From an uncultured Elusimicrobia bacterium (lineage in GTDB: Bacteria; Elusimicrobiota; Endomicrobiia; Endomicrobiales; CAIRNS01), in assembly GCA_903880015.1 (NCBI GenBank), contig CAIRNS010000001.1, forward strand, positions 59,413-123,412: 64,000 nt of DNA. The letters are read 5' to 3'. The position numbers were made by a program, and so were the translations under genes. Below the pieces are notes generated by a model, which did not search any database, was not told where the DNA came from, and saw nothing but the letters and a program-made list of their open reading frames with translations. This document shows, piece by piece, positions 28,977-49,761 of the stretch (within the stretch, counting starts at the first letter, position 1; the number at the start of each line of letters is the position of its first letter).

Positions 28977-28993
28977 TTTTCTGAGAGGCAGTT

Positions 28994-29779: not shown

Positions 29780-29821
29780 CCAATGGTGTGCGGGTAATCT
29801 TACGGAGGCGGTACTTTTATT

Positions 29822-31063
29822 ATGTCTAACCAGATTGCGGTCTCAGCGGATAAATGCATCGGATGCGGACTGTGCTTTAAAGCGTGTCCTTTCAATGCGA
29901 TATCCATGGCGGAACGCCCGACTCACCCCAGAAAACTTAAACTTGCTGTCATCGATATGCATACCTGTACTTTTTGCGGTGCGTGTGTTGATTCCTGCAA
30001 AAATATCGGCGCAATAACCATGATCAAGGATGCCCCTGCGGTTCTTGACACAGATTTATCCGCCTACCGCGGCGTATGGGTATATGCCGAGCAGCGCCAC
30101 GGTGAAATATCACCGGTGGTCTATGAACTCCTTAACGAAGGTGCCGTCTTGGCGCGCAAACTGAGCGTCCCGTTGTCCGCCGTGTTAATCGGCGACAACA
30201 TAGAAGCAAAAGCACAGGACCTGATACACCATGGCGCCGACAAGGTATACCTGTTTGACGCTCCGCTGTTCATTGAATTTCAGGATGATTCCTATTCCGA
30301 TGTCTTGTCACACCTTATCGTTGAAGAAAAACCTGAGATAGTACTGATGGGTGCAACCAATATCGGCAGGTCGTTCGCCTCGCGCGTAGCAGCCCGCATC
30401 CGCACCGGACTTACGGCAGACTGCACGGCTTTGGATATTGATCCGACAACAAGAAATCTTATGCAGACCCGTCCGGCATTCGGCGGCAATATTATGGCAA
30501 CCATCCTGTCGCCGCGGCATCGCCCTCAAATGTCAACGGTTCGTCACAAAGTTTTCAAGCCCGCAGTGAAAGATTCATCCCGCACCGGCACCATCATCAA
30601 AAAAGGCGTTAACACCGCTACTATAGTCAATAGAACTAAATTTCTGGGATTTATTAAAGATACGACTGCCAAGGTCAATCTTTCCGATGCCGACATTATA
30701 GTATCCGGCGGCAGAGGATTGGGAAAAACGGAAGGGTTTACCCTGATTGACGAACTTGCTGAAGCCCTGGGCGGCGCGGTCGGATCATCCCGCGCGGCAG
30801 TTGACGCGGGCTGGATTCCCTATTCTCACCAGGTGGGACAAACGGGCAGAACCGTCAGCCCGAAGATCTATTTCGCCTGCGGAATCTCCGGACAGATACA
30901 ACATCAAGTAGGCATGGGATCGTCAGAAATCATTGTGGCTATCAATAAGGATCCCAGCTGCCCAATGATGAAAATGGCAACCTTCGCCATCGAAGGCGAC
31001 CTGTACGAAGTTATCCCCTGGATCATAAAAGAAATCAAAAAAGCACGCGGCTGTCAGATATAA
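29822..31063 (+). CDS. etfA: Electron transfer flavoprotein alpha subunit with N-terminal ferredoxin domain
   Basis: EtfA of 413 residues, about 70-80 longer than plain EtfA because residues 1-65 form a 2[4Fe-4S] ferredoxin domain (CIGCGLCFKACP and CTFCGACVDSCK; the second motif lacks the usual Pro). The Etf part holds GADKVYLFD and ATNIGRSFASRVAARIRTGL, and the C-terminal FAD domain has VGSSRAAVDAGW and QVGQTGRTVSPK. CarE of A. woodii has the same extra ferredoxin domain and works in a ferredoxin-reducing complex. The likely role is to carry electrons between flavin and soluble ferredoxin, which could feed the hydrogenase encoded downstream. It is the last gene before a strong terminator. 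Confidence 0.93.
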   Translation: MSNQIAVSADKCIGCGLCFKACPFNAISMAERPTHPRKLKLAVIDMHTCTFCGACVDSCKNIGAITMIKDAPAVLDTDLSAYRGVWVYAEQRHGEISPVVYELLNEGAVLARKLSVPLSAVLIGDNIEAKAQDLIHHGADKVYLFDAPLFIEFQDDSYSDVLSHLIVEEKPEIVLMGATNIGRSFASRVAARIRTGLTADCTALDIDPTTRNLMQTRPAFGGNIMATILSPRHRPQMSTVRHKVFKPAVKDSSRTGTIIKKGVNTATIVNRTKFLGFIKDTTAKVNLSDADIIVSGGRGLGKTEGFTLIDELAEALGGAVGSSRAAVDAGWIPYSHQVGQTGRTVSPKIYFACGISGQIQHQVGMGSSEIIVAINKDPSCPMMKMATFAIEGDLYEVIPWIIKEIKKARGCQI

Positions 31064-31770: not shown

Positions 31771-31773
31771 TGT

Positions 31774-32022
31774 ATGGACACCATCATTATTGACGAACGC
31801 ATTGATGTAGGCGCAGTATTTAAAAAAAACATCATTAAACCGCGCTGGTTTGTTTGGAAGGGGCGCAAGTACGCCATTACAGAAGTTACCTATACCTGGG
31901 AGGATACCCAGGGGGCAGCCAGGGTCATGCATTTTGCGCTCAGCGACGGGAACACCTTGTTTGAAGTATCATTAAATCTTACCTCGCTGGAATGGCGACT
32001 TGAAAAAAGCTCCGTTGTTTGA
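31774..32022 (+). CDS. Small conserved-looking protein between lexA and dinB
   Basis: Unrecognised 82-residue protein encoded 3 bases after lexA and 8 bases before dinB. It reads as a single small beta-rich domain: PRWFVWKGRKYAITEVTYTWED, then HFALSDGNTLFEVSLNL and a final EWRLE. The pattern of an F-W-GR-Y strand, a W and a final WxL resembles the DUF6504-type domain found at the end of, or beside, ImuB-like Y-family polymerases, though this is recall of a pattern and not a search result. Its location points to a damage-inducible accessory factor of the DinB polymerase. Confidence 0.75.
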   Translation: MDTIIIDERIDVGAVFKKNIIKPRWFVWKGRKYAITEVTYTWEDTQGAARVMHFALSDGNTLFEVSLNLTSLEWRLEKSSVV

Positions 32023-32030
32023 GACATACA

Positions 32031-33382: not shown

Positions 33383-34396
33383 ATGGCCTTATATTACATT
33401 ACTGAATCGAACTGGAACAGTTTCCTTCATTTGCTCATCACCAAATTTATTGCTTATTCACTGGAAAATCGTGAAGGCAAACTTTTTTGGACGCAGGTAT
33501 CCGCTGATAAAATGCCCGGGATTACCATCAATCGTTACCGTGCACTCCACTCGATAAAAAACTTTTTTTTCCCTCTTGCCGAAGAAGTAACCCATGAGCC
33601 ATCCCCCAAAAAAACCGTTCTGATAGGCGTAAAAGCGTGCGATCTTAAACAATTGGAAATTATGGATGCCCTTTTTAGCGGAGGGGTTGTCGCTGATCCG
33701 TATTATGTTGCTCGACGGCAGAACACGATCATTATTTCCTGCGATTGCGATGCCTCACTCCCCAGCTGTTTTTGCACAAAAATAAGTGGACAGCCCTATC
33801 CCAAAAAGGGATTTGACATAAATCTAAGCTTGGTGCGGGCAGGATATATCGTTGAAACCGGAAGCTCGGCGTGTGACGATCTTATTATGTCAAAAAAACG
33901 CCTATTTCAGGTACCGCAAAGTTACCATCTTGCCGAACGGGACCATATCCGTCAAAAAATAACCAAGGCGGTCACCGACAATAATCAGTCCTTTTCGTGG
34001 AATGATCCGCGAACATTGGTACAATCAAGCCATGAGTCACCTCAATGGTTGACTGATATCGCAGGAACATGCGTCGAGTGCGATGCATGTCGATTTAATT
34101 GCGGCACCTGTTATTGTTTTTTTCTGGGGAACAGTGAAAATAACGGCGAGAAAATGCGGACTTGGGATTCTTGCCAATCGACGGGATACGGCAGGGTTGC
34201 GGGGGGAGCTAATCCCCGCAAAGAGAAGCATGAACGATTACGCAATTATTATGCTTGCAAGCTCGTATATCGCCCGGAGAATTTCGATGTGTATGCCTGT
34301 TCAGGGTGCGGCCGGTGCATAGAAGTATGCCCAGGGAAAATCGATATTCGCAAAAGCCTTCAAAAACTCTATGAGCATGTTCAAAAGCCCGTATAA
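33383..34396 (+). CDS. Iron-sulfur subunit, sulfhydrogenase beta (HydB)/anaerobic sulfite reductase A-like
   Basis: Protein of 337 residues in the HydB/AsrA family, which carries electrons from a partner flavoprotein to a hydrogenase or reductase. The N-terminal 200 residues include VLIGVKACDLKQLEIMDALF and a CDCDASLPSCFC cluster, both seen in this family. The C-terminal part has two [4Fe-4S] sites, CVECDACRFNC and CSGCGRCIEVCPGKID. The next gene encodes the HydG/AsrB-like flavoprotein and overlaps it by 26 bases. In Pyrococcus these subunits serve a soluble group 3 hydrogenase; here they precede a membrane group 4 enzyme. Partnering is inferred from gene order. Confidence 0.83.
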   Translation: MALYYITESNWNSFLHLLITKFIAYSLENREGKLFWTQVSADKMPGITINRYRALHSIKNFFFPLAEEVTHEPSPKKTVLIGVKACDLKQLEIMDALFSGGVVADPYYVARRQNTIIISCDCDASLPSCFCTKISGQPYPKKGFDINLSLVRAGYIVETGSSACDDLIMSKKRLFQVPQSYHLAERDHIRQKITKAVTDNNQSFSWNDPRTLVQSSHESPQWLTDIAGTCVECDACRFNCGTCYCFFLGNSENNGEKMRTWDSCQSTGYGRVAGGANPRKEKHERLRNYYACKLVYRPENFDVYACSGCGRCIEVCPGKIDIRKSLQKLYEHVQKPV

Positions 34397-35198
34397 ATCC
34401 ATACCGGCAATACTCGAAACCATAATCGAGGAAACTGCCGCCATAAAAACTTTTGTACTGCGTCCGCAGGAGCCCATAATGTTCGATACGGGACAATTCA
34501 TCGAACTCTCTATACCCGGTGTCGGCGAAGCTCCTTTTACGCCATCTTCTTCGCCATTAGCAACAGACACCATTGAAGTTACCATCATGCGCGCAGGACA
34601 CCTGACGGAACATCTGCACCGGCTCAAAGGCGGTGAGACTTTGGGGATTCGCGGGCCGTATGGAAAAGGATATCCGCTTGATAAATGCCCGGGCAAAGAA
34701 GTCATTATTGTCGGTGCCGGCGTCGGCATAGCCCCCTTGCGCTCCTTTCTTTTACCCTTGATAGCGCAAAAAGACAACTACAGCCGCATTTTAGTTTGCT
34801 ACGGCACAAAAACACCGGCCGATATCGTTTATAAAGATCAATTCCCTGAATGGGAAAAGGTTCCAGGGCTTGAATTACTACGCAGTGTTGATACTTGCCC
34901 CATCGGCGCTTGGGACGAGACGGTGGGGTTAGTCACCTGTTTGCTTGACAAAGTAAAAGTTACCACTGCTTCTGCTATTGCCGTTGTCTGCGGACCGCCC
35001 ATAATGATGAAATTTACGGTTAAAAAGTTACTGGATATCGGACTTAAACCACATGATATATATGTCTCCATGGAAGGCAATATGTCGTGCGGCATCGGCA
35101 AATGCGGGCATTGTCAGCTGGGCCCTTATTTTGTCTGCAAAGACGGTCCGGTTTTCAGTTATGACAAGATTCAAAACATCCCATCACCTTTTGCATAG
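34371..35198 (+). CDS. FAD/NAD(P)-binding diaphorase, sulfhydrogenase gamma (HydG)/AsrB-like
   Basis: Ferredoxin-NADP reductase-type flavoprotein of 275 residues. FAD domain with GQFIELSIPGVGEAPF and SSSP, then the NAD(P) domain with VIIVGAGVGIAPLRSF and VVCGPPIMMKF. A C-terminal [2Fe-2S] cysteine motif CGIGKCGHCQLG...VC matches HydG and dihydroorotate dehydrogenase B subunits. It should take electrons from, or give them to, NAD(P)H and pass them to the HydB-like partner. NADH versus NADPH preference cannot be read from the sequence by eye. The start overlaps the previous gene; a second ATG two codons later is equally possible. Confidence 0.87.
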   Translation: MSMFKSPYKSIPAILETIIEETAAIKTFVLRPQEPIMFDTGQFIELSIPGVGEAPFTPSSSPLATDTIEVTIMRAGHLTEHLHRLKGGETLGIRGPYGKGYPLDKCPGKEVIIVGAGVGIAPLRSFLLPLIAQKDNYSRILVCYGTKTPADIVYKDQFPEWEKVPGLELLRSVDTCPIGAWDETVGLVTCLLDKVKVTTASAIAVVCGPPIMMKFTVKKLLDIGLKPHDIYVSMEGNMSCGIGKCGHCQLGPYFVCKDGPVFSYDKIQNIPSPFA

Positions 35199-35210
35199 GA
35201 TGACCGAGCA

Positions 35211-35696
35211 ATGGACAACATGAAAAAACTTGTTATTGATATTGATGTATGTTATCAGTGCACTGATTGTGTGGCTGATTGTGATTATTTTTACCATCCT
35301 CATAACAAGGGATATGTCCGCTGTATGGCTTTGGCGGCACAGGAACATGTTTGTCGCCGTTGTGAAGATTCCCCGTGTGTCTCCGCCTGTCCGCGCGAAG
35401 CCCTTGAAAAGGATGCGAACGGCAGATTAAACCGCTCATCTTTGCGGTGTACTTCGTGCAAAAGCTGTACGGTGGCTTGTCCGTTCGGCGTTATTTATCC
35501 GCGCATCGTAGAATATTCATCAACCATGTGCGATTACTGCGCGGACCGGTGCACTGACGAACAAACACCCGTGTGCGTAAAATCCTGTACGCAGGGGGCA
35601 CTGCAATGGCGTGAAGTTTCTGAAGATCCGTCAGCAAATATTTATGCCGTACGCGATGGCGCTTTTTATGTGAGAACAATTAAATGGAAAAAATAA
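35211..35696 (+). CDS. Polyferredoxin, HycB/CooF/HydN-like
   Basis: Electron-transfer protein of 161 residues with four cysteine motifs: CYQCTDCVADC, CRRCEDSPCVSACP, CTSCKSCTVACP and CDYCADRC...CVKSC, enough for four [4Fe-4S] clusters as in HycB and CooF. These proteins link an upstream donor to a membrane-bound group 4 hydrogenase. It sits between the diaphorase pair and the membrane subunits, exactly where a wire between the two modules would be expected. Start at 35211 or the ATG 9 bases later. The 3' end overlaps the next gene by 13 bases. Confidence 0.85.
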   Translation: MDNMKKLVIDIDVCYQCTDCVADCDYFYHPHNKGYVRCMALAAQEHVCRRCEDSPCVSACPREALEKDANGRLNRSSLRCTSCKSCTVACPFGVIYPRIVEYSSTMCDYCADRCTDEQTPVCVKSCTQGALQWREVSEDPSANIYAVRDGAFYVRTIKWKK

Positions 35697-36610
35697 ATAT
35701 TCTTACAACGCTCGTGCAGTATCTTGTTTTTCCAGGATTCCTTTTTCTGGCTGTTGCGGGGTTATTTGTATCATGGGCTGACCGTAAACTTGCGGCCCGC
35801 ATGCAATGGCGGGTGGGGCCGCCTCTGCTACAGTCATGGTATGATATCAGGAAACTTTTCAAAAAGGAACTTATAATCCCCGAAGGCGGTAACACGCTTG
35901 CTTTTATCTGTGCGCCGGTCATTGCATTATTATCGATCATATATGCAGGCGCGAATCTTATAATGATCTTGTTTATGCAGGGACAGATCTTCCCCGGCGA
36001 TTTATTTGTTTTTCTGTATCTTTTATCGATTCCCTCGGTATGTATGATGCTCGGGGCGTCGGCCTCGGCAAACCCGTACGCAGCGCTGGGCGCAAGCCGC
36101 GAGATGAAACTGATTTTAAGCTACGAATTGCCGCTGCTAATCAGCATTATTGTCGCCGCCCTCAAAGCACATGTCATGTCGTTGGGGTTGATCATTCAAT
36201 TTCAGATGGAACACTTGCCCGCTATCGCCTCTTTGTCGGGGGTTTTGGCAGTGGCGGTTTCTATGGTATGCATTCAGGCAAAAATGGGCATGGCCCCCTT
36301 TGATGTCAGCGAAGCGGAAACAGAACTTGCCGGAGGTCTATTTGTCGAATACTCTGGCCCTCTGCTGGCGGTGTGGAAACTGGTTAAAATGATTGCAATG
36401 ATTGTGTTTCCGCTCTTTCTGGTGCTTATTTTCTGGGCTGGCGGTTCGCTGTCACTGGTGGTTCTTAAATGCGCCGGCATTATACTTATAGCGATAATTG
36501 CGCGCATTCTCAGCCCGCGCGTACGGATTGATCATGCACTCACATTCTTTTGGCGCAAGGTGACGCCGTGGGCGATTCTCGCTCTGCTCTTGGCAATCAT
36601 AGGCATATAG
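35684..36610 (+). CDS. mbhM: Group 4 hydrogenase membrane subunit, NuoH/HycD-like (MbhM)
   Basis: Membrane anchor of 308 residues with about eight helices. SWADRKLAARMQWRVGPPLLQSWYD, split across the first loop, is the conserved contact with the hydrogenase arm, and FDVSEAETELAGGLFVEYSG is the NuoH-family signature with its acidic residues for proton movement. It couples electron transfer in the peripheral arm to ion translocation in the membrane. It overlaps the polyferredoxin gene and is followed by the small subunit after 7 bases. Confidence 0.9.
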   Translation: MEKINILTTLVQYLVFPGFLFLAVAGLFVSWADRKLAARMQWRVGPPLLQSWYDIRKLFKKELIIPEGGNTLAFICAPVIALLSIIYAGANLIMILFMQGQIFPGDLFVFLYLLSIPSVCMMLGASASANPYAALGASREMKLILSYELPLLISIIVAALKAHVMSLGLIIQFQMEHLPAIASLSGVLAVAVSMVCIQAKMGMAPFDVSEAETELAGGLFVEYSGPLLAVWKLVKMIAMIVFPLFLVLIFWAGGSLSLVVLKCAGIILIAIIARILSPRVRIDHALTFFWRKVTPWAILALLLAIIGI

Positions 36611-36617
36611 GATTTTT

Positions 36618-37037
36618 ATGGTTAACGCTTTTACCCAATCATTATTTGTATTTCATGCAGCATGCAGTCCGTGCAATAATTGCGATATCGAGATACTGGA
36701 TATGCTCGCCCCGCGACATGATGTGGAACGATTCGGTATACAGCTTGTCGGATCGCCCCGCCATGCCGATGTTCTGCTTGTTTCAGGCGCGGTCAACAAA
36801 AAGGTTGTCCATCGCATCAAACGGCTCTACGAACAAACGGCAAAACCCTGTTTTGTCATAGCCGTCGGCGGCTGCGCGTGTTCTGAAATTCTGTTTCGTG
36901 ACTCGTACAACACCTGCGGGCCGTTAGATACAATCCTTCCGGTGGATATGTATATCCCCGGGTGCCCGCCGAAGCCGGAAGCAATGATTGCCGGCATAGT
37001 TAAGCTTATGGAAAAACTCAAAGGGAAGAAAAAATGA
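36618..37037 (+). CDS. mbhJ: Group 4 [NiFe] hydrogenase small subunit, NuoB-like (MbhJ)
   Basis: Small subunit of 139 residues that binds the [4Fe-4S] cluster next to the NiFe site. The four ligand cysteines are in SPCNNCDIEIL (two), VGGCACSEI and PGCPPKPEAMI, as in NuoB-family small subunits of group 4 enzymes. It has no Tat signal, as expected for a cytoplasmic-facing complex. It overlaps the NuoC-like gene by ATGA. Confidence 0.92.
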   Translation: MVNAFTQSLFVFHAACSPCNNCDIEILDMLAPRHDVERFGIQLVGSPRHADVLLVSGAVNKKVVHRIKRLYEQTAKPCFVIAVGGCACSEILFRDSYNTCGPLDTILPVDMYIPGCPPKPEAMIAGIVKLMEKLKGKKK

Positions 37038-37474
37038 TCATTGACGATATTAAGCATTTTTTAAAAGCGCAGATTATCAGCTGTGACGAAACAAAAAAGG
37101 GGCAAGTCATTATAATGGTCGCCCCTGACGCAATTGCAACGGCAATTCCCTATCTATTCAAAGATAAATATCTGCGTTTTATGACCATAACCGGCATTGA
37201 TGTACGCCAATATTTTGAATTATCTTATCATTTCAGCGATGACGGGACCGGAACAATAATCAGTATTCGGACCCGATTAACTGACAAGTCATTCCCGCGG
37301 ATTGCATCGATAACGCATATCATTATCGGCGCTAACTGGATTGAACGCGAATTGCACGAAATGCTGGGCATTGTTTTTGAAGGACACCCCAATCTCAAAC
37401 ATCTGCTGTTGTCGGAAGATTGGCCTGCCGGCAACTTCCCGCTGAGGCAGAACGGACAATCAGATGGAAAATAA
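37034..37474 (+). CDS. mbhK: Group 4 hydrogenase NuoC-like subunit (MbhK)
   Basis: Protein of 146 residues matching the 30-kDa NuoC family: the block RIASITHIIIGANWIERELHEMLGIVFEGHPNL, in two parts, ends in the usual motif for docking on the large subunit, followed by LLSEDWP and PLRQ. It is a separate gene here, not fused to the large subunit as in HycE. It overlaps both neighbours. Confidence 0.9.
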   Translation: MIIDDIKHFLKAQIISCDETKKGQVIIMVAPDAIATAIPYLFKDKYLRFMTITGIDVRQYFELSYHFSDDGTGTIISIRTRLTDKSFPRIASITHIIIGANWIERELHEMLGIVFEGHPNLKHLLLSEDWPAGNFPLRQNGQSDGK

Positions 37475-38669
37475 GAAAAATTCTTTTATCCCTATCGGGC
37501 CGTATCATCCTTTACAAGAAGAACCTGAATTTTTTAAACTCTTTGTAGAAGGTGAACGGGTTACCGGCATTGAAATCGATATCGGATATAACCACCGCGG
37601 CATAGAAAAATTGTCCGAAGCAAAAAACTTCGAGCAAGGCGTATATGCGGTTGAACGCATATGCGGTATTTGTTCAACATCACACCCGTTCGCCTATGTC
37701 AACGCCATTGAAAATCTTGCCGGCATAGAGATCCCGGAACGGGCGAAGTATATTCGCACCTTTGTCGGAGAGCTAGAACGGCTCCATTCTCACATGCTGT
37801 GGCTGGGGCTGGTGGGACACTTTGCCGGGTACAACACGCTGTGGATGTGGACATGGAAACACCGTGAACCGGTACTGGATATATTCGAACGGATATCCGG
37901 TAACCGCCAGCATTATTCGATGATGCGCATTGGCGGTGCGCGAACCGACATTGACAGTAACGATATCCCCTGGGTACTGCAGCAAATCGACACCCTGCAA
38001 TCAGCGCTCATGATGATATTTGAAACGCTTGCCAACGATCCTGTTTTTGCCGCGCGCACCAAAGGCGTCGGTATATTGACAAAACAGGATATTCAGGACT
38101 ACGGCGGCGTCGGGCCGCTGGCGCGCGCCTCAGGCGTTGCGTTCGATGTGCGGCGCAATGCGCCCTATGCCGCGTACGGATTAGTTGATTTTGATGTGAT
38201 AACAGCTGAAACCGGCGATATTTTTGCAAAAGCGGTAGTTCGTATACGGGAGATGCTTGAATCGATCCGCATGATCCGTCAATGCATGGAACACTTGCAA
38301 AGCACTGCCGGACCATTTTTCGTCAATGTCAAAGAAATCCCGCCGGGCGAAGGCATCGGCCGTCACGAAGCGCCCCGAGGCGAATGTTTCCATTATATCC
38401 GCACCGATAAAACGAACCGACCGGTGCGCCACAAGATTCGCGCCCCGTCGTTTATGAATGTTGCCACTAACCAAAAAGCGGTAATTGGGCAATATATTTC
38501 TGACGCACTCTTGATACTGGGCGCGGTTGATCCGTGCTATTGCTGTACGGAACGCATGATAATAGTTAACAAGGAATCGCCGGATCGGATACTGACCGCC
38601 AACGATCTCTTGAAGTTATCTCATGAAAAAACAATCCGCCTGCGCAAAGAGGGGGGATATCCTTTGTGA
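37464..38669 (+). CDS. mbhL: Group 4 [NiFe] hydrogenase large subunit, NuoD-like (MbhL)
   Basis: Catalytic subunit, 401 residues. Both NiFe-binding cysteine pairs are intact: ERICGICSTSH near residue 70 and DPCYCCTER near residue 360. It is therefore a true hydrogenase and not a complex I or MBS-like relative that has lost the metal site. RGECFHYIRTD and IGRHEAPRGE are group 4 motifs. About 40 residues follow the second pair, which may be cut off by a maturation peptidase or retained; no peptidase gene was found nearby. All Hyp genes but hypB lie downstream in the same direction. Confidence 0.94.
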   Translation: MENKKNSFIPIGPYHPLQEEPEFFKLFVEGERVTGIEIDIGYNHRGIEKLSEAKNFEQGVYAVERICGICSTSHPFAYVNAIENLAGIEIPERAKYIRTFVGELERLHSHMLWLGLVGHFAGYNTLWMWTWKHREPVLDIFERISGNRQHYSMMRIGGARTDIDSNDIPWVLQQIDTLQSALMMIFETLANDPVFAARTKGVGILTKQDIQDYGGVGPLARASGVAFDVRRNAPYAAYGLVDFDVITAETGDIFAKAVVRIREMLESIRMIRQCMEHLQSTAGPFFVNVKEIPPGEGIGRHEAPRGECFHYIRTDKTNRPVRHKIRAPSFMNVATNQKAVIGQYISDALLILGAVDPCYCCTERMIIVNKESPDRILTANDLLKLSHEKTIRLRKEGGYPL

Positions 38670-40480
38670 TCGAGCTTTATCTCGGGATTCTCCTCTTATT
38701 AGGACTGATATGCTATTTGATACCGGTGCGGCACTCATATGCCCTTAAAGCTTTTGCACTACTTGGCGCTGTCTATATCGGCGCACAAATCGTACTAAAC
38801 TTTCTAACGCCGCCTCTGTCGGCTACCACTTATTTCGCCGGCGGAGCATACCCGGGGTTTTTTGCTTTGGGATGCAGCTTCTTCACTGCTGTGGTCATTA
38901 TATACTCCCTGTCTTATGCCAGATTCATTGAGGAACTCAACAAGTATTACGCATATATTTTCTGGTGCGCGGCAGTTTCCGTAGGTGCGATATATTCTTG
39001 TCATCTGATTATGTTTGCCGTCATGTGGGGTTTGTCAGGCGTTCTTGTATATCTCCTAGCCTCGCTGCAACCTCTTGCCGCCAACGCTGCAAAGAAATCC
39101 TTTATCTTCATCGGCGGCTCCGACGCAATAATTATGTTGGGCATACTCAGCGTTATTTTTTTTACCGGAACATTTACCATTGGCGCGTCCCCTATAGATC
39201 TTAATCACGCGCCGTTCATTATGCAGATTGCCTGCATCTGTTTTTGTATTGCGGCACTGACAAAAGCGGGGGCAATGCCGTTTCACACATGGATTCCTGA
39301 CTTCGCCGAAACCGTGCCGCTGAGTATAACCGCTTTTCTGCCGGCGTCCCTTGATAAGATTTTGGGCATTTTTCTTCTGGTAACCATAACAACAAAAATA
39401 TTTATTATTACCCCGCTTATAATGTATTCGTTGCTGACTATCGGTTCACTCACCATCATCGCTGCGGTGTTTATGGCTATGGCTCAGCATGATATGCGCC
39501 GCTTGCTTTCCTACCACGCAGTTTCACAGGTTGGGTACATGGTCATCGCCATCGCGTCGGGCACGCCGCTGGGGATTATCGGCGGCGTTTTTCACATGCT
39601 CAACCATACCGTCTATAAGACACTGTTATTTATGTCAGCGGGGGCCGTTGAGCATCGAACACACACCACGCATCTTGACCGCCTGGGGGGGCTTGCCGCT
39701 TTTATGCCTTTTACCGCAGCCGTTTGCCTGACCGGCGCTCTGGCGATTTCCGGCATACCTCCTTTCAACGGATTCGCTTCAAAGTGGATGATATACCAGT
39801 CCCTGATAACCGCCGCAACAGCGCAGCCATTCACCAGCGCTCGGACAATCTTTTTCCTGGGAGCTGTCATCACCGCCATATTCGGCTCGGCTTTTACGCT
39901 AGCCAGTTTTATTAAACTTATTCATGCCATTTTTTGGGGACAGAAAACCCGGACCTATGACCCCAGCGTCGTCAAAGAAGTCGGCATAAGCATGATGCTT
40001 CCGATGATGATGCTCGCACTGCTTTGTATCCTTTTTGGTTTACTGCCGGGCTCACTGGCGCTAGGCAAACTCATCAGCCCGGCCTTATCGTCTATCGGCA
40101 TTTCTATTCCACCGGTTGTCCCGTTCTGGAAAGCCGGTGCGGCAGGACTGCTCATTCTTGCCGGAGTTGCCGCGGGCTTCCTGTTATTTTTCATCACGGC
40201 GATAAAGATACGCAAAAACGGAGTATTTGTCGGGGGTGAGGTTCTGCCCCTTGAAGCCCGAGCGCCGGCGATTGATTTTTATCAGACGATTACTGATGTG
40301 CCGCTGTTGAACCGCATATATGCAATGGCACATAGAAAATGGTTTGATATATATGAATGGGGAACCAAGGGGATACTCTCCTTCGGACAATTATTGTCCG
40401 ATGTGCAAACGGGCAGCATGCATACTTATGTACTTTTATGCTTATTGGGATCAGCTCTTCTATTCGCTGCGTTATTGTAG
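38666..40480 (+). CDS. Antiporter-like membrane subunit, NuoL/MrpA N-terminal/HyfB type
   Basis: Polytopic protein of 604 residues of the proton-antiporter family. The Lys/His residues typical of the channel lie in ALTKAGAMPFHTWIPDF and LLSYHAVSQVGYM, and HMLNHTVYKTLLFM is the conserved helix. The C-terminus (YEWGTKGILSFGQLLSDVQTG) is like HycC/MbsH'-type subunits of membrane hydrogenase and MBS complexes. With the subunit at 41744 it makes two antiporter modules in one locus. It uses a GTG start overlapping the large-subunit stop, with GAGGGGGG upstream. Confidence 0.88.
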   Translation: MIELYLGILLLLGLICYLIPVRHSYALKAFALLGAVYIGAQIVLNFLTPPLSATTYFAGGAYPGFFALGCSFFTAVVIIYSLSYARFIEELNKYYAYIFWCAAVSVGAIYSCHLIMFAVMWGLSGVLVYLLASLQPLAANAAKKSFIFIGGSDAIIMLGILSVIFFTGTFTIGASPIDLNHAPFIMQIACICFCIAALTKAGAMPFHTWIPDFAETVPLSITAFLPASLDKILGIFLLVTITTKIFIITPLIMYSLLTIGSLTIIAAVFMAMAQHDMRRLLSYHAVSQVGYMVIAIASGTPLGIIGGVFHMLNHTVYKTLLFMSAGAVEHRTHTTHLDRLGGLAAFMPFTAAVCLTGALAISGIPPFNGFASKWMIYQSLITAATAQPFTSARTIFFLGAVITAIFGSAFTLASFIKLIHAIFWGQKTRTYDPSVVKEVGISMMLPMMMLALLCILFGLLPGSLALGKLISPALSSIGISIPPVVPFWKAGAAGLLILAGVAAGFLLFFITAIKIRKNGVFVGGEVLPLEARAPAIDFYQTITDVPLLNRIYAMAHRKWFDIYEWGTKGILSFGQLLSDVQTGSMHTYVLLCLLGSALLFAALL

Positions 40481-40501
40481 TTGTATAGGAACTTTTAAAT
40501 T

Positions 40502-41014
40502 ATGACCCTTATTTCCTTTATCATCTGTTTAATGATTGTTGCCGCCCTTTTTGCGATTGAATCGCGAAACATGGTAGCTTCCGTCATCTCTTTAGGCACT
40601 GTTGGCCTGGGATTATCTCTGTCATTTTTGCTTCTCAAGGCGCCCGATCTTGCCGTAATACTTCTCATTGTCGAGATTATCACCATGATAACGTTGCTCC
40701 GCGCAACCGCTGCGTTTGATACTTGTACAATACGAAGCTACGGCAGGACAACGGAATCGGCGGCTGTTCTGTTTTTGCTCTGTTTTACCGCTATTGCATG
40801 GAAAGTGTTTTCATCGCTACCACCATTCGGAGCGCCGGTCATTAAGACAGATGAGATGTTTTCGATTATCCTTTCCGGTGGCATTATTAATCGGGTGACC
40901 GCTGTTGCGCTGGGTGTCCGCTCGCTGGAAACTGTCGGTGGAATGGCAGTTCTTCTTATTGCCGCAGCCGGTGTCGCCACGGTGATGCGTGCTGCGTCAA
41001 GGAGGAAACCATGA
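40502..41014 (+). CDS. MrpA C-terminal-like subunit (DUF4040, MbhD/MbhE-like)
   Basis: Hydrophobic protein of 170 residues. The first part has LLKAPDLAVILLIVEIIT, the DUF4040 block of MbhD and of the MrpA C-terminal region; the second part, with an extra pair of helices and AVALGVRSLETVGGMAV, resembles MbhE. So the MrpA tail is coded as its own gene and MbhD and MbhE appear fused. It belongs to the ion-translocating module. The last bases overlap the mrpB-like gene. Confidence 0.82.
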   Translation: MTLISFIICLMIVAALFAIESRNMVASVISLGTVGLGLSLSFLLLKAPDLAVILLIVEIITMITLLRATAAFDTCTIRSYGRTTESAAVLFLLCFTAIAWKVFSSLPPFGAPVIKTDEMFSIILSGGIINRVTAVALGVRSLETVGGMAVLLIAAAGVATVMRAASRRKP

Positions 41015-41415
41015 ACGGGCTCAGCGATGTCGTAAAAACCGTTAGCCGGTACGCGACCGGACCGCTGGTTATCTTTGGTATATATCTTTTCACGCACGCT
41101 GACCGCAGCCATGGCGTAGGGTTTGCCGGCGGACTCATCATCGCATTGACGGTAATGATGCTGATCCTGTCGTTTGGGTGGCGCCGGGCGCAGTACACCC
41201 TGCCCCCCGTTAAGGTTCAAACCGCCGGACTTTTTTCACTGCTGGCAATGACGGCAACAATGACTGCTATGACCTATGCAAGCACCATCTGTTTTTCTGT
41301 GCCCGCGTTTATATCGTTGTATCCGGTACTAATACAAATGCTCAATGTCTTTCTTTGTCTGGGGACTGCGTTTGCTTTCATTTCAATTTTTTATGTCTTG
41401 TCGAGGGGAAAGTAA
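41011..41415 (+). CDS. mnhB: MrpB/MnhB-like subunit (MbhF)
   Basis: Membrane protein of 134 residues, about four helices. GPLVIFGIYLFTHADRSHGVGFAGGLIIA matches, in pieces, the MnhB-domain signature with its HG-GGFxGG pattern. It is part of the Mrp cation/proton antiporter module that membrane-bound hydrogenases share. AGGAGG precedes the ATG; overlaps of 4 bases upstream and 1 base downstream indicate translational coupling. Confidence 0.88.
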   Translation: MNGLSDVVKTVSRYATGPLVIFGIYLFTHADRSHGVGFAGGLIIALTVMMLILSFGWRRAQYTLPPVKVQTAGLFSLLAMTATMTAMTYASTICFSVPAFISLYPVLIQMLNVFLCLGTAFAFISIFYVLSRGK

Positions 41416-41747
41416 TGGCATTTATACTTGCAATCATATTATTTTCCATCGGACTTTACGCAGTTATCGTTAAACGCAACATAGTCAAGATTATTATCGG
41501 CATAGCCGTCATGGGATATGCGGTCAATCTTCTCATGATCATGATTGGCTACCGGGCGGATGGGACCATTCCCCTGGCATCCTACGGGGCGGGCATGGTA
41601 ACGGTTGACCCGCTAATGCAAGCGGTAGTTTTGACGACCATTGTAATCGGATTGTCGATGACGGTATTTCTGGTCGCGCTCGCCTTACGCTTATACGCAA
41701 CCTATAACACGATTGATGTTGCGGAAATACGGGAATTAAACGGATGA
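41415..41747 (+). CDS. mnhC: MrpC/NuoK-like subunit (MbhG)
   Basis: NuoK-family protein of 110 residues with three helices. The ATG at 41415 shares its A with the upstream stop and has GAGGGGAA before it; a longer frame from 41355 runs inside mnhB and is rejected. KIIIGIAVMGYAVNLLMI and DPLMQAVVLTTIVIGLS with its buried acidic residues are typical of MrpC. It overlaps the MrpD-like gene by ATGA. Confidence 0.9.
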   Translation: MAFILAIILFSIGLYAVIVKRNIVKIIIGIAVMGYAVNLLMIMIGYRADGTIPLASYGAGMVTVDPLMQAVVLTTIVIGLSMTVFLVALALRLYATYNTIDVAEIRELNG

Positions 41748-43234
41748 ATCTTTTACCTTTGCTGATCATTATTCCCTTACTGGGAGCAATCATCGTTTTA
41801 TTGATGCGTTCCTGCGCAAAACCATGGCATGATGCGGTGACATTTATTACTTTGATCGCCCTTTCAGTCATTGCCGTGCTGGTACAGACAGGCGTGGTAT
41901 CCCACGGCATGATGGTATTTAATCCTGGATCCGTTGTGCCGGGGTTAGGGACGATAGCTGTAGCCGATGGATTGACGGGATTGATGCTCATTACCATCAA
42001 TACGGTAATTACCTGCATGGTCATATTCTCTATTGACTATATAAATCGATTCGAGGATTCTGCGCTCTACTATTTTCTCATTCTCATGACTACCGCCGGA
42101 TTAAACGGCGTTCTTATTTCAGGTGATCTCTTTACCTTGTATGTCTTCATGGAGATTGCGGTCATTTCGGCGTATGTGCTCACGGCTTTTACCAACGAGC
42201 CGGAGAGTTTGGAAGCATCGTTTAAGTATGCAGTGATTGGCGGCGTTTCATCTTTACTGATCCTGTGCGCGATAGCGTTTATTTATGCTGAAACGGGCTC
42301 ATTAAGTTTTCATGAAATCGCCATAGCGTGGAACCGCCCCGAGCATTTTCTTACCGTTCTTGTCATGGTACTGCTGATTGTTGGCTTCGGCATAAAATCA
42401 ACGCTTATTCCGTTCTCAAGCTGGGTCCCAGATGCGTACACCGCTGCCCCGGCCCCGGTGGCGGGCATATTTTCCGGCGCGGTCAGCAAGGTTGTTGGCA
42501 TCTATGCGCTGATGAGGCTTCTGTATAATATTTTTGGTTTTGACGCTCACATCATGTCGGTCGTGGGGTGGCTTGCTGTAGCCTCGATAATTATCGGCGT
42601 CACGCTGGCGTTGTACCAATGGAATTTCAAACGACTTCTGGCGTATCATTCAATCAGTCAGATCGGATACATGATCCTAGGACTATCGCTCGGAACGCCT
42701 CTGGGAATTGCCGGAGGGCTTATGCACTTGATCAATCATTCGGTATTCAAGCCCCTATTGTTTTTAAATGCCGGAAGCATTGAACACACTTCAAACGCTA
42801 CAACCCTGAAGGATATGGGCGGATTGGCGCAGCGTATGCCCGTTACCGGCGCCACATCGCTTATTGCGTCACTGTCGATATCGGGCATCCCGCCCTTCAA
42901 TGGTTTTTGGAGCAAATTATTAATCATATTTGCCTGTGTGCAATCGGGTAAATTCGGTTTTGCGGTCATCGCGGTGGCGGGCAGTATTTTAACCTTGGCT
43001 TCTTTTACAAAAGTGCAGCGATATGCGTTTATGGGACCACTAAACCGTGCGGCTCAATCAATCGGTGAAGCGACCATGCTGATGCGCCTATCGATGATTA
43101 TACTGACGGTATTATGTGTAAGCATGGGTGTATTACTGCTGCCCGGGGTATACGAGGTTTTCCTTGAACCCGCTGTACGGGCACTGACTGTCGGACGACA
43201 TTATGGCGTTGCCATTGAGAAACTACTCCAATGA
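41744..43234 (+). CDS. mnhD: MrpD/NuoM-like antiporter subunit (MbhH)
   Basis: Antiporter-like subunit, 496 residues and about 14 helices. Channel motifs: TLYVFMEIAVISAYVL with the conserved Glu, FGIKSTLIPFSSWVPDAYTAAP with the Lys, LLAYHSISQIGYMILG, and HLINHSVFKPLLFL. This is the MrpD-type unit kept in all Mrp and Mbh complexes. It sits in strict Mrp order between mnhC-like and mnhE-like genes and overlaps both by 4 bases. Confidence 0.92.
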   Translation: MNLLPLLIIIPLLGAIIVLLMRSCAKPWHDAVTFITLIALSVIAVLVQTGVVSHGMMVFNPGSVVPGLGTIAVADGLTGLMLITINTVITCMVIFSIDYINRFEDSALYYFLILMTTAGLNGVLISGDLFTLYVFMEIAVISAYVLTAFTNEPESLEASFKYAVIGGVSSLLILCAIAFIYAETGSLSFHEIAIAWNRPEHFLTVLVMVLLIVGFGIKSTLIPFSSWVPDAYTAAPAPVAGIFSGAVSKVVGIYALMRLLYNIFGFDAHIMSVVGWLAVASIIIGVTLALYQWNFKRLLAYHSISQIGYMILGLSLGTPLGIAGGLMHLINHSVFKPLLFLNAGSIEHTSNATTLKDMGGLAQRMPVTGATSLIASLSISGIPPFNGFWSKLLIIFACVQSGKFGFAVIAVAGSILTLASFTKVQRYAFMGPLNRAAQSIGEATMLMRLSMIILTVLCVSMGVLLLPGVYEVFLEPAVRALTVGRHYGVAIEKLLQ

Positions 43235-43719
43235 ATAAAATAAAACTTTATTATTTTTCGGTGCTGATGTTTGTATGGATCATACTCACCTGGTCGGTGA
43301 ACCCCTATCAGTTGTTGCTCGGCGCCACGGCATGTATGTTGGTAACGCTTTTCACCAGCGGACTTATCCCGGCATCCATACAGCCATTTACAAAACCAGC
43401 AGCGATACTAATACTGTTACGGTACGCCTGCCTTCTTGCGGCCGACATGCTAAAAACAAATATCATCATTGCGGGAAGGCTGCTGCGTCAGCCAGCAAGC
43501 ACAGAGACAACGATGACCTTCCAATCAACATTGACTAATCCTCTGGCACTGACTCTGTTGGCGAACGCAATATCGCTTATTTATGACACGGCCGTCGTAA
43601 CGATGGCTGCCCGGACCGGAACGCTACTCATACACTGCACGGCAACGGAAATCGGCGGAGAATCGCCGGTACGTTTGCGCATTGAAAAATATCAGGGTCT
43701 TCTGGAAAACATATCATGA
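43231..43719 (+). CDS. mnhE: MrpE/MnhE-like subunit (MbhA)
   Basis: Protein of 162 residues of the MnhE family: two or three N-terminal helices, then a soluble part with STLTNPLALTLLANAISL and GTLLIHCTA, the conserved MnhE segment. It is a structural part of the Mrp module. It overlaps mnhD-like and mnhF-like genes by 4 bases on each side. Confidence 0.86.
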   Translation: MNKIKLYYFSVLMFVWIILTWSVNPYQLLLGATACMLVTLFTSGLIPASIQPFTKPAAILILLRYACLLAADMLKTNIIIAGRLLRQPASTETTMTFQSTLTNPLALTLLANAISLIYDTAVVTMAARTGTLLIHCTATEIGGESPVRLRIEKYQGLLENIS

Positions 43720-44051
43720 AATGCATCCGGTATATATCGATATTACTATTGGTAATCGCCGTCGTGGCGCTAATCTTTTTAACTATGGGTTCATGGCATG
43801 AACGGTGGAATTACCTGCTCATATTCAGCGCTTTTATCGCGCTGCTGCGCCTGATTATTGGACCTGCGACAATAGACCGGGTTGCTGCCATGAAAGTCAT
43901 CAGCGTTATTATCATTAATTTTTCCATCATTATGGGCGTCATGACCAACAATGATTTGTATGTTGACATTGCCATCGCATGGGCGTTTCAGGCATTTATC
44001 GGCACACTGATATTTGCAAAACACGGTGAAGGGAAGAACCTCGATGCATAA
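43716..44051 (+). CDS. mnhF: MrpF/MnhF-like subunit (MbhB)
   Basis: Small membrane protein of 111 residues, three helices. LLRLIIGPATIDRVAAMKVIS carries the Asp of the GPxxxDR motif typical of MrpF. It overlaps the previous gene by ATGA; the mnhG-like ATG lies within its final codons. Confidence 0.88.
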   Translation: MKCIRYISILLLVIAVVALIFLTMGSWHERWNYLLIFSAFIALLRLIIGPATIDRVAAMKVISVIIINFSIIMGVMTNNDLYVDIAIAWAFQAFIGTLIFAKHGEGKNLDA

Positions 44052-44373
44052 TATATTTCATATTGCCGGATATGTGCTGATAACGGTCGGCGTGGTTTAC
44101 AACCTCATCGCCGCAATCGCGGTCATGAGGTATTCTTCACCCTTGTCCCGTCTGATAGCATCCACAAAAGCGCTGGCATTCGGAACCGTGTTGGTCATCG
44201 GCGGAGCGATTGTTATAAACGGTTGGTCGGCAATGGGAGTTAAATCACTGCTCTGTCTTATTTTTGCCGTTGTTACTGCGCCGGTCGAGGCGCACGCTCT
44301 GCTCCGGTCGTGGTACAAATCGGCGGCGACACCTCTGACAACCCAGAATCGCAGGCACCATGAAACTATTTAA
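44044..44373 (+). CDS. mnhG: MrpG/MnhG-like subunit (MbhC)
   Basis: Small membrane protein of 109 residues with three helices. IAAIAVMRYSSPLSRLIASTKA matches, in two parts, the MrpG pattern of a Gly/Ala-rich helix before a R-x-x-S-P-x-x-R-x-H/S-A-x-T/K loop. The ATG at 44044 is used since it starts at the first helix; an ATG 30 bases upstream lies inside mnhF. It completes the set MrpA(split)-B-C-D-E-F-G. Confidence 0.87.
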   Translation: MHNIFHIAGYVLITVGVVYNLIAAIAVMRYSSPLSRLIASTKALAFGTVLVIGGAIVINGWSAMGVKSLLCLIFAVVTAPVEAHALLRSWYKSAATPLTTQNRRHHETI

Positions 44374-45001
44374 ACTACGCGAATTAAAACAGGCTTTCAC
44401 CGCGCTGTTCAATAAACCCTATACAAATAATTTTCCGGCTCAGCCGCATATTCCGTTCCCGCGTTTTCGCGGTCGGCCAGTCCCGAGCGATGATGCTTGT
44501 ATTGCCTGCGGCGCCTGCGCGGAGGTTTGCCCATCGCGGGCAATAGAGGTTATTAACACCGTAGAAGGGAATATACCGAGCCGCGCAGTAATCTGGCATT
44601 ATGATCTGTGCATTTTCTGCGGGCAATGCGAACGGCTATGTACGACCATTGACGGGGTAAAACTTTCAAACGAATATGATCTCGCCACAGATGATCGCTC
44701 GACTCTTTTTGCGCGCATCGACAAAGAACTTATCCTGTGCGAATCATGCCGTGCCATTATCGCCCCGCGCGCCCAGCTTCTATGGCTTATCAAGCGCATG
44801 GGAGCATTGGCATCGGGAAATTTCAATCTGGTTTTTGAGATGCAGAAAGAACTTGGTTTGGTTAGCCGCGCGCAACCTCCCACGCCTGGATTTGCCTCGC
44901 GCCAGGATTTGTACCGCGTTCTCTGTCCTCACTGCCGCCATCAGGCGCTGATTTTCAATCAGACAGGGAAACAACCGCCGGCGTTGGATAACAGTTTGTA
45001 A
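44360..45001 (+). CDS. mbhN: NuoI-like 2[4Fe-4S] subunit of group 4 hydrogenase (MbhN)
   Basis: Ferredoxin-type subunit of 213 residues that passes electrons from ferredoxin into the hydrogenase arm. Two motifs, CIACGACAEVCP and CIFCGQCERLC, supply eight ligands; the second lacks the usual Pro. The C-terminal 110 residues are unusually long and hold two more pairs, CESC and CPHC, which could bind a metal or another cluster. It is the last structural gene and is followed by hypA after 70 bases. Confidence 0.88.
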   Translation: MKLFKLRELKQAFTALFNKPYTNNFPAQPHIPFPRFRGRPVPSDDACIACGACAEVCPSRAIEVINTVEGNIPSRAVIWHYDLCIFCGQCERLCTTIDGVKLSNEYDLATDDRSTLFARIDKELILCESCRAIIAPRAQLLWLIKRMGALASGNFNLVFEMQKELGLVSRAQPPTPGFASRQDLYRVLCPHCRHQALIFNQTGKQPPALDNSL

Positions 45002-45071: not shown

Positions 45072-45419
45072 ATGCATGAACTGGCGATTGCTCAGGATTT
45101 TTGGAAAACGATACTTGATAACGCGCGCACTAACCACATAAAGAAAATTACCAAAATATCTCTTATGCTGGGTGAGGCATCCGGGATAGAAAAAGATTTT
45201 CTTGAGCATTCCCTGCGCGACCATATTATGCCGGGAAGCATCGCCGCGGACGCCCAGCTCGAGATTACTCTGCTCCCACTTGCTGCATCGTGCAAATCAT
45301 GCGCAACCGTCATTACCAAAGATATGATGTCCACGCTTGCCTGCCCGCAGTGCGGATCGAGAGATATCGATATTCAATCAGGCAGAGAAACATATGTCGC
45401 CTCCATTGAAGGGGAATAG
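45072..45419 (+). CDS. hypA: Hydrogenase nickel-insertion protein HypA
   Basis: Nickel chaperone of 115 residues. MHELAIAQ gives the Ni-binding His2, and the zinc site is CKSC...CPQCGS. It delivers nickel to the hydrogenase large subunit, usually with the GTPase HypB, which is missing from this locus. AAGGGA precedes the ATG. Its 3' end overlaps hypF by 26 bases. Confidence 0.95.
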   Translation: MHELAIAQDFWKTILDNARTNHIKKITKISLMLGEASGIEKDFLEHSLRDHIMPGSIAADAQLEITLLPLAASCKSCATVITKDMMSTLACPQCGSRDIDIQSGRETYVASIEGE

Positions 45420-47871: not shown

Positions 47872-48099
47872 ATGTGTCTTGCTGTTCCCGGAAAAATAAT
47901 TACTTCTATTACGGACCATATAGCTGATGTTGATTTTGGCGGCGTCGTGCGTTCTGTTCAGTTTAATCTTTTGCCCGATGTCGCAAAAGGGAACTATGTT
48001 ATCGTCCATGCGGGATTTGCCATTTCAAAGCTTACCAACAAGGATGCAAAAAAAACTCTTGCTCTTTTTAAAGAAATGAATGAACTCTGTGAACCCTGA
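47872..48099 (+). CDS. hypC: Hydrogenase maturation chaperone HypC
   Basis: Small chaperone of 75 residues that works with HypD to carry the Fe(CN)2CO group. The start is fixed by the family N-terminus MCLAVPGKI with essential Cys2; an ATG two codons earlier would bury it. VDFGGVVRSVQFNLLPDV and YVIVHAGFAISKL are typical. The 3' end overlaps the acetyltransferase gene by 20 bases. Confidence 0.94.
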   Translation: MCLAVPGKIITSITDHIADVDFGGVVRSVQFNLLPDVAKGNYVIVHAGFAISKLTNKDAKKTLALFKEMNELCEP

Positions 48100-48691
48100 A
48101 ATATCACCCTATAACGAACCGGCATTGCCGGCCATATATAACGACCTCCCGGAGCTCACTACTGCCCGCCTTGTTTTGAGAAAAATGCGCCTGACAGACG
48201 CAGGCGATATGTTTGCGTACGCCTCTGACCCTGATGTATCCCGTCATCTTGTTTGGACACCGCACCAAAATATCGACGAAACACTCGGTTTTTTGAAATA
48301 TGTCCTCAGCCGTTATGCCCAGGGGACGATAGAGGATTGGGGCATTGAACATCGCCAAACACGTGCGTTTATCGGCACTGCCGGCTATTTTTTTTATGAT
48401 GGATTGCATCACCGGGCTGAAATTCATTATTGTCTTGCTAAATCATATTGGCGCCAAGGGCTGATGACAGAAGCACTTCGTGCCATTATCGCTTTTGGAT
48501 TTCAGCAGATGAACCTTCACCGCATTGAAGCAAAATGTTTTCCGGATAATATCGGTTCTCAAAGTATTCTCCTGAAGCTCGGTATGCAGTATGAAGGGAT
48601 TATGCGCCAGGGACTCTATGCAAAAAAAACATATCACGATATGCGCTGTTACGCCATCCTTTCATCGGACTCTATAAAGAACAATGAATAG
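48080..48691 (+). CDS. GNAT N-acetyltransferase, RimJ/RimL-like
   Basis: Acetyl-CoA-dependent acetyltransferase of 203 residues. LTTARLVLRKMRLTDAGDMF opens the RimJ/RimL-type domain, followed by EIHYCLAKSYWRQGLMTEAL with the acetyl-CoA loop (usually QGxGxEA) and FGFQQMNLHRIEAKCFPDN. The gene is wedged between hypC and hypD and overlaps both (20 and 8 bases), so it is translated with them. Such enzymes acetylate protein N-termini, lysines or small molecules; no hydrogenase-related role is established. Confidence 0.85.
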   Translation: MNSVNPEISPYNEPALPAIYNDLPELTTARLVLRKMRLTDAGDMFAYASDPDVSRHLVWTPHQNIDETLGFLKYVLSRYAQGTIEDWGIEHRQTRAFIGTAGYFFYDGLHHRAEIHYCLAKSYWRQGLMTEALRAIIAFGFQQMNLHRIEAKCFPDNIGSQSILLKLGMQYEGIMRQGLYAKKTYHDMRCYAILSSDSIKNNE

Positions 48692-49697: not shown

Positions 49698-49761
49698 TGA
49701 AGAATTATTCCCACGTTGCAAAAGGGGGACACAGGGGGGGTTGTCGTACTCCTTCGTCCTT

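Follow-up and report, generated by a model that had tools for sequence, protein, structure and literature searches.

A conserved HydB/HydG pair as the putative electron-input arm of Mrp-linked group 4 [NiFe] hydrogenases in Elusimicrobia and other uncultured bacteria

Which electron donor serves a membrane-bound [NiFe] hydrogenase whose operon also encodes relatives of two chains of a soluble enzyme? The question is raised by a set of 16 genes at positions 33383-45001 of the window, by which is meant the whole 64,000-nucleotide stretch of contig CAIRNS010000001.1, from an uncultured Elusimicrobia bacterium, that was analysed here. Sulfhydrogenase I (SHI) of Pyrococcus furiosus, whose beta and gamma chains align with the products of the first two genes, HydB and HydG, respectively, is soluble and has group 3 catalytic subunits. 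The operon described here probably encodes instead a membrane [NiFe] hydrogenase of group 4, with an electron-input arm that stands in for formate dehydrogenase and consists of HydB, HydG and a HycB-like ferredoxin; the interconversion of NAD(P)H and H+/H2 would be coupled to ion movement through a Mrp arm. All 16 genes lie on the + strand, with successive gaps of -26 to +21 bp:

33383..34396, + strand: HydB-like iron-sulfur subunit (sulfhydrogenase beta / AsrA family), 337 amino acids (aa); Fer4_22; P. furiosus SHI beta 9nez_B, E 3e-34
34371..35198, + strand: HydG-like FAD/NAD(P) and [2Fe-2S] subunit (sulfhydrogenase gamma / AsrB / PyrK family), 275 aa; NAD_binding_1, DHODB_Fe-S_bind; SHI gamma 9nez_C, E 1e-49
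35211..35696, + strand: HycB-like ferredoxin with four cluster motifs, 161 aa; 7z0s_B HycB, E 4e-11
35684..36610, + strand: MbhM / NuoH / HycD-like membrane anchor, 308 aa; NADHdh, E 4e-61; Escherichia coli match HycD
36618..37037, + strand: MbhJ / NuoB / HycG-like small subunit with the proximal [4Fe-4S] cluster; family match
37034..37474, + strand: MbhK / NuoC-like subunit; Complex1_30kDa
37464..38669, + strand: MbhL, [NiFe] catalytic subunit, 401 aa; 6cfw_L, E 5e-87; 7z0s_E, E 1e-78
38666..40480, + strand: antiporter-like subunit, HyfB-like, 604 aa; Proton_antipo_M; best E. coli match HyfB
40502..41014, + strand: MbhD; PF13244
41011..41415, + strand: MrpB/MnhB-like; PF04039
41415..41747, + strand: MrpC/NuoK-like; PF00420
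41744..43234, + strand: MrpD-like antiporter subunit, 496 aa; PF00361, E 2e-68
43231..43719, + strand: MrpE-like; PF01899
43716..44051, + strand: MrpF-like; PF04066
44044..44373, + strand: MrpG-like; PF03334
44360..45001, + strand: MbhN, HycF-type two-cluster ferredoxin with a C-terminal Cys quartet (by alignment), 213 aa; 7z0s_F HycF, E 1e-17

Two CxxC NiFe motifs in the NuoD-like subunit, together with NuoB-, NuoC-, NuoH- and NuoI-like partners, place the enzyme in group 4. MbhL falls in a clade of 108 sequences (FastTree local support 0.845), and its NiFe cysteines, within RICGIC and DPCYCC, are conserved in 109/109 clade relatives; the proximal-cluster cysteines C19, C22, C86 and C116 of MbhJ are conserved in 96/96. 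An earlier note, made from the letters of the window, had described sixteen same-strand genes with intact NiFe cysteines, and this was confirmed, the metal-ligand cysteines being intact. Its subunit list was borne out at the level of families, but the 604-aa protein is a stand-alone HyfB-like antiporter-like subunit accompanied by a separate MbhD, not one fused MrpA, and the NuoI-like subunit, although present, is a HycF-type MbhN of 213 aa rather than a short NuoI/MbhN.

The HydB/HydG pair keeps its place beside MbhL. Named loci were gathered via MbhL (the best 80 of 260 relatives) and a same-phylum survey covered 340 genomes, the window's own included; the two sets may overlap. A locus was counted only if at least 4.7 kb lay upstream of MbhL, which set aside 29/80 named and 10/30 same-phylum loci as too short. 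HydB and HydG stand beside MbhL in 51/51 named and 20/20 same-phylum loci, and the ferredoxin in 48/51 (by open reading frame [ORF] choice) and 20/20; the three misses (L049, L053, L055) are an artefact of ORF choice, tblastn recovering all three. Deposited titles of the relatives include Omnitrophota, Bacteroidales, Kiritimatiellae, Chitinispirillaceae, Margulisiibacteriota, Saganbacteria, Zixibacteriota, Atribacterota and Cloacimonadota. The earlier note had asked whether the order HydB-HydG-polyferredoxin-Mbh is kept in relatives and had named relatives without the pair at this place as grounds for abandoning its reading; the order is kept, and no such relatives appeared among the loci counted. 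Chance neighbourhood was ruled out by the recurrence of the same gene order across loci of many phyla. The operon is real and conserved, and it behaves as one unit.

A further group 4 hydrogenase of the phylum shares about 44% identity and has NiFe motifs (hereafter the paralogue); HydB, HydG and the ferredoxin occur beside it in 0/19 loci with enough flank (21 fetched, 2 too short). Residues 356-361 of MbhL read DPCYCC in 109/111 clade sequences (the other two gave no match), a count that is partly selected because the relatives set used the peptide pattern CYCCTERM, the same-phylum set not being motif-chosen; paralogues read DPC[FMIL]SC (19/21) or DPCVCC (2). DPCYCC has one additional Cys beside the active-site ligands.

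A HydB search of the 340 genomes matched 92 at E 1e-8 or better and 28 at E 1e-49 or better, all of these 28 having a clade MbhL. HydB was present in 29/30 clade-MbhL genomes, counting one (G237) with a fragment locus in the order HydB-HydG-ferredoxin-H-J-K-L, and in the sole miss (G329) the contig ends at MbhK. Identity was at most 32% in the remaining 63 HydB genomes (44% for a short fragment in G145), none of which has a clade MbhL; of 16 fetched, 11 show HydB-HydG followed by a large-subunit match at 19-26% identity, an arrangement of group 3 type. That the other pairs of the phylum precede such a distant large subunit in 11/16 loci, and that AsrA and AsrB are also among the matches of HydB and HydG, would fit a pair that forms a separate soluble enzyme (a diaphorase, or a sulfur or sulfite reductase) and merely shares the operon. 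This is very improbable given the pair's presence in 71/71 clade loci versus 0/19 paralogue loci and the results of searching the window's own genome for other partners.

Those searches used an assembly of 1.81 Mb in 31 contigs, 99.92% complete. HydB has one match there, itself, and HydG has itself and one weak second match (38%, with an internal stop, on another contig). Three [NiFe]/NuoD-type large-subunit genes are present, one of them without Ni cysteines. As other partners for HydB/HydG, group 3 [NiFe] hydrogenases, molybdopterin oxidoreductases (PF00384, with control matches in 11/14 genomes) and AsrC (TIGR02912) were searched for in the genome, and none was found over cut-off; AsrC gave 8 weak matches, no control genome passed either, and none lay as a separate gene in the operon. 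No Rnf-Nqr membrane subunit was found in the same genome, which gave two POR_N matches. Both group 4 hydrogenase types are present, the second (locus L119, genome G000, contig C10) without HydB/HydG and with a short MbhN and three antiporter-like subunits. A HycI protease gene adjoins this second hydrogenase; none was seen by the window hydrogenase among the proteins scanned. The window hydrogenase is thus the sole partner that we could find for HydB/HydG in this genome, and the assignment of the pair and the ferredoxin to this hydrogenase in the earlier note stands.

What kind of donor module the pair forms is indicated by its family matches and cofactor ligands. The best NCBIfam match of HydB is ShyB/HydB, and those of HydG are PRK08345, AsrB, ShyC and HydG, with scores below the curated cut-offs, so that both proteins are relatives whose orthology to those families is unproven. 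Fourteen cysteines of HydB are conserved in 74/74 relatives and a fifteenth in 73/74; the four C-terminal cysteines of HydG are conserved in 80/80. HydG carries a single FAD/NAD domain, which is of the SHI-gamma/PyrK type. At the position of a Thr in SHI gamma, 81/81 HydG sequences have Asp. Work on the ferredoxin-NADP+ reductase family points to NADH for an Asp at this position; since Asp is also found in the 16 other comparison-group sequences, the residue does not discriminate NADH from NADPH. Leaving aside the window's own HydB, the closest one in the protein database is 80% identical and named as from an Endomicrobiales bacterium, and other close ones are named Elusimicrobia, which makes Elusimicrobiota the likely phylum. 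Plasmid records were tried as named HydB controls and rejected: of 38 records, the 20 listed were 23-29% identical and annotated as AsrA, as a 4Fe-4S protein or not at all.

The ferredoxin and MbhN point to the way in which such a module may dock. The ferredoxin belongs to the HycB/DmsB-like family and matches HycB of formate hydrogenlyase (FHL) and HycB of the hydrogen-dependent CO2 reductase; the cysteines of its two middle clusters are invariant (83/83), and those of the outer clusters vary between loci. MbhN has HycF as its best match among the group 4 hydrogenase chains listed, the two sharing a C-terminal extension with a Cys quartet. In relatives, C127 and C130 are kept in 73/74 and C189 and C192 in 73/73. 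When scored as CxxC motifs after the last cluster motif, which was possible in 72/107 clade and 19/21 paralogue loci, two such motifs were found in 70/72 clade loci versus 0/19 paralogue loci. In the FHL structure, as far as the consulted part of its description extends, the HycF extension interacts with HycB and its Cys quartet holds a metal (PMC9474812). The combination of a HycB-like ferredoxin with a HycF-type extension suggests a HycB-on-HycF-like docking, in which HydB/HydG would sit where FdhF would feed in electrons.

The presence of these FHL-type docking parts would also fit an enzyme in which HydB, HydG and the ferredoxin serve a formate dehydrogenase docked in the FHL manner, with exchange among formate, NAD(P)H and H2. 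In Saganbacteria L114 and Zixibacteriota L087, HydG and the ferredoxin are separated by a molybdopterin oxidoreductase gene, and ORFs of similar size, which were not scanned, lie there in L095 and L108, so that both input modules may coexist in these loci. An ORF of any kind is found at this place in only 10/73 loci, however, and one of at least 469 aa in only 4 of those 10, and the absence of a PF00384 match from the window's own genome also makes a formate-linked enzyme extremely unlikely here. Other ORFs were noted at or near the same place. One of 151-156 aa lies between HydG and the ferredoxin in L081, L097, L098 and L106 (cyclic-nucleotide-binding in L081, the sole one scanned) and a CBS-domain protein in L126; these inserts are possibly regulatory. 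In L114, L095, L108 and L069, from Saganbacteria and Margulisbacteria, the ferredoxin and MbhM are separated by a 225-aa ORF, the L114 copy of which consists of TPR repeats.

The sequences show the gene order, the cofactor ligands, the docking-type extension of MbhN and the conservation across the clade; the physical complex, its carrier (NADH or NADPH), its direction and its ion are predictions. Electrons would pass from NAD(P)H to the FAD and [2Fe-2S] cluster of HydG, through the [4Fe-4S] clusters of HydB to the four-cluster ferredoxin, and onward through the two clusters of MbhN and the one of MbhJ to the [NiFe] site of MbhL, and MbhM would tie the redox arm to both antiporter-like subunits. 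These subunits have conserved charged residues, among them E137, K218, K249 and K391 of the MrpD-like one, each in at least 80/85 sequences. With potentials taken from the consulted part of PMC9304861, H2 formation from NADH comes to +25.9 kJ/mol at 1 bar and +3.0 kJ/mol at 1e-4 bar H2, from NADPH to +6.6 and -16.3 kJ/mol, and from ferredoxin to -16.6 and -39.4 kJ/mol. If NADH is the donor, forming H2 costs energy unless H2 is very low, which would put the pump arm into reverse electron transport; NADPH under low H2, or H2 itself as the donor, could build a gradient. Coupling to ions would in this way allow H2 formation to be driven by NADH, or a gradient to be built from H2 or NADPH.

That NADH by itself is uphill at most of the pressures tried speaks for a dual-donor enzyme, in which ferredoxin also enters, through the four-cluster ferredoxin or MbhN, and is oxidised together with NAD(P)H by branching or flavin-based confurcation. 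The clusters of the arm could take ferredoxin electrons, a Thermococci enzyme (Nfd, see below) accepts either NAD(P)+ or ferredoxin, and Mbh-Bfu of Dehalococcoides, in the part of the source consulted, is a proposed NADH- and ferredoxin-linked membrane hydrogenase (PMC9304861). However, HydG holds the single FAD/NAD-type domain of the 16 subunits, among which no Complex1_51K match (NuoF-type, BfuB), the mark of the bifurcating Bfu type, was found; the use of both NAD(P)H and ferredoxin, or confurcation, which the earlier note had put forward, therefore gained no support. The ferredoxin load could also go elsewhere: the genome has an [FeFe] hydrogenase with an adjoining NuoF-type protein, and the second group 4 hydrogenase with its short MbhN and no HydB/HydG. 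A dual-donor enzyme is therefore unlikely, though worth bearing in mind.

Several observations weigh against an NAD(P)H-linked, ion-pumping complex. Homologues of the sulfhydrogenase beta and gamma chains are also contained in Nfd, a formate dehydrogenase of Thermococci. This enzyme uses NAD(P)+ or ferredoxin, according to the consulted part of its description (PMC10025317), so that ferredoxin may enter the window enzyme as well; it is soluble and, unlike the product of the window operon, has neither a hydrogenase nor a membrane arm. The HydG sequence does not settle whether NADH or NADPH would be the carrier. The pump arm is not constant: in 76 loci that cover MbhL to MbhN, all eight tested membrane parts were found in 31 and all but MrpE in 28, whereas MrpB, E, F and G were absent in 7, each judged by similarity. 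In two loci of the window's order (L121 and L122, genomes G327 and G326), solely a 293-299 aa antiporter-like protein lies between MbhL and MbhN; it matches the C-terminal half of the 604-aa subunit, and ion pumping is doubtful in those two, which do keep the HydG-ferredoxin arm. A conserved gene order with correlated distances can, moreover, reflect co-inheritance of an operon whose products do not form one complex. Distances of HydB, HydG, the ferredoxin and MbhJ correlate with those of MbhL at r 0.83, 0.84, 0.81 and 0.82, versus 0.49 for MrpD, the MrpD set possibly mixing paralogues. Together with the variable Mrp parts, this suggests that the donor module stays with the hydrogenase more faithfully than the Mrp arm does.

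The proposed NAD(P)H-linked enzyme shares parts with several known systems. Like FHL-1 of E. coli (group 4a), it has matches to HycB, HycC/HyfB, HycD, HycE, HycF and HycG, including the HycF Cys-quartet extension; unlike FHL-1, its operon has HydB/HydG instead of FdhF, separate NuoC- and NuoD-like subunits and added Mrp subunits. Like the membrane-bound hydrogenase (MBH, group 4d) of P. furiosus, whose chain 6cfw_L is the best PDB match of MbhL, it is a Mrp-linked membrane [NiFe] hydrogenase, but its MbhN has 213 aa rather than 139 and its operon encodes the donor subunits HydB, HydG and HycB-like ferredoxin. To our knowledge MBH has no HydB/HydG and no dedicated donor subunits. It oxidises ferredoxin, as stated in the consulted part of PMC2678158. 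The likeness to SHI (group 3b; PDB 9nez, 9nf0) lies in the HydB and HydG homologues, at scores below curated cut-offs, whereas MbhL and MbhJ are of the NuoD/NuoB type and no group 3 large and small subunits were found. Mbh-Bfu likewise joins, as proposed in the consulted part of PMC9304861, a group 4 hydrogenase to an NAD-linked flavoprotein module, which there is BfuABC (NuoF-type, bifurcating) and not HydB/HydG.

The earlier note had called the arrangement the best candidate for an undescribed system. The gene combination was in fact noted in 2019 in one Saganbacteria genome, where the RX5A region, called enigmatic, brings together asrA, asrB, cooF, a group 4 hydrogenase, Mrp genes and a Mo enzyme, its closest sequences being from Zixibacteria and Omnitrophica (PMC6349859, in the part consulted). 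All of these parts except the Mo enzyme, a molybdopterin oxidoreductase, have counterparts in the window, the Mrp genes of RX5A coding for Mrp-like subunits; an oxidoreductase module is proposed there, in the same part of the source, without the naming of an NAD(P)H donor. The clade-wide pairing and a testable donor are newly added here. The following sources are likewise cited from the parts consulted. Mrp-linked enzymes of Omnitrophota and Cloacimonadota were assigned to group 4g in a paper in whose text HydB/asrA was not found (PMC8542988); HydDB lists the role of group 4g as undetermined and putatively ferredoxin-coupled (PMC5037454), and the 4g enzymes of Endomicrobium are described as uncharacterised and presumably ferredoxin-dependent (PMC11257099). 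No paper that assigns HydB/HydG to a group 4 hydrogenase as its donor module was seen in the literature searched, which lay mostly outside subscription papers and supplements.

Outside the 16 genes, hydrogenase maturation genes follow, hypA beginning +70 bp after the set, and a block for acyl-CoA redox metabolism lies upstream:

27816..31063, + strand: acyl-CoA dehydrogenase, EtfB, and EtfA with an N-terminal 4Fe-4S (ferredoxin) domain; context, outside the complex
45072..45419, + strand: HypA (nickel insertion); PF01155
45391..47745, + strand: HypF, start codon provisional; family match
47872..48099, + strand: HypC; family match
48684..49697, + strand: HypD; family match
49603..50799, + strand: HypE-like, with AIRS domains, start codon provisional; the name HypE is suggested by position

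The acyl-CoA dehydrogenase/EtfB/EtfA block is separated from the window HydB by three genes. Blocks 76-86% identical to it immediately precede HydB in L122 and L123 and lie upstream of it in L164 with two opposite-strand ORFs between, all three from the same order as the window genome; a tie between the operon and acyl-CoA redox metabolism is a lead only. Directly before HydB, at 31180-33257, are a LexA-like repressor (judged by eye), a small ORF and a DinB/ImuB-type polymerase with IMS domains, a possible SOS cassette. Rfam and tRNA scans of the window gave no matches. A plasmid of Azospirillum thermophilum (NZ_CP029357.1, locus L226) carries a group 4 hydrogenase that shares 44% identity with MbhL and whose companions, in place of HydB/HydG, are a 4Fe-4S dicluster protein, an aldehyde ferredoxin oxidoreductase and a MoaD/ThiS protein, perhaps another donor module.

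Taken together, these data lead us to favour, with some reserve, the view that HydB/HydG on a formate-hydrogenlyase-type core with a Mrp arm would form a widespread, unrecognised respiratory NAD(P)H hydrogenlyase, that is, an ion-coupled NAD(P)H:H+ oxidoreductase and a hydrogenase counterpart of complex I that has a dehydrogenase arm of its own. Group 4 hydrogenases might then be seen as a socket for exchangeable donor modules attached through a HycB/HycF-type pair, be it formate dehydrogenase, HydB/HydG or perhaps both, a view in which the Azospirillum aldehyde oxidoreductase beside a 4Fe-4S protein would also find its place. If the clade falls in or near group 4g, the electron donor there is likely to be NAD(P)H instead of ferredoxin, and the H2 metabolism deduced for uncultured Omnitrophota, Bacteroidales, Kiritimatiellae, Margulisbacteria and Elusimicrobiota would change accordingly. 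NADH-driven H2 formation is a standing problem in fermentation and syntrophy, for which the enzyme would offer an ion-coupled route; if the proposal is true, anaerobes of many uncultured phyla, some of them lacking Rnf like the window genome, would spend or build an ion gradient to balance NAD(P)H against H2.

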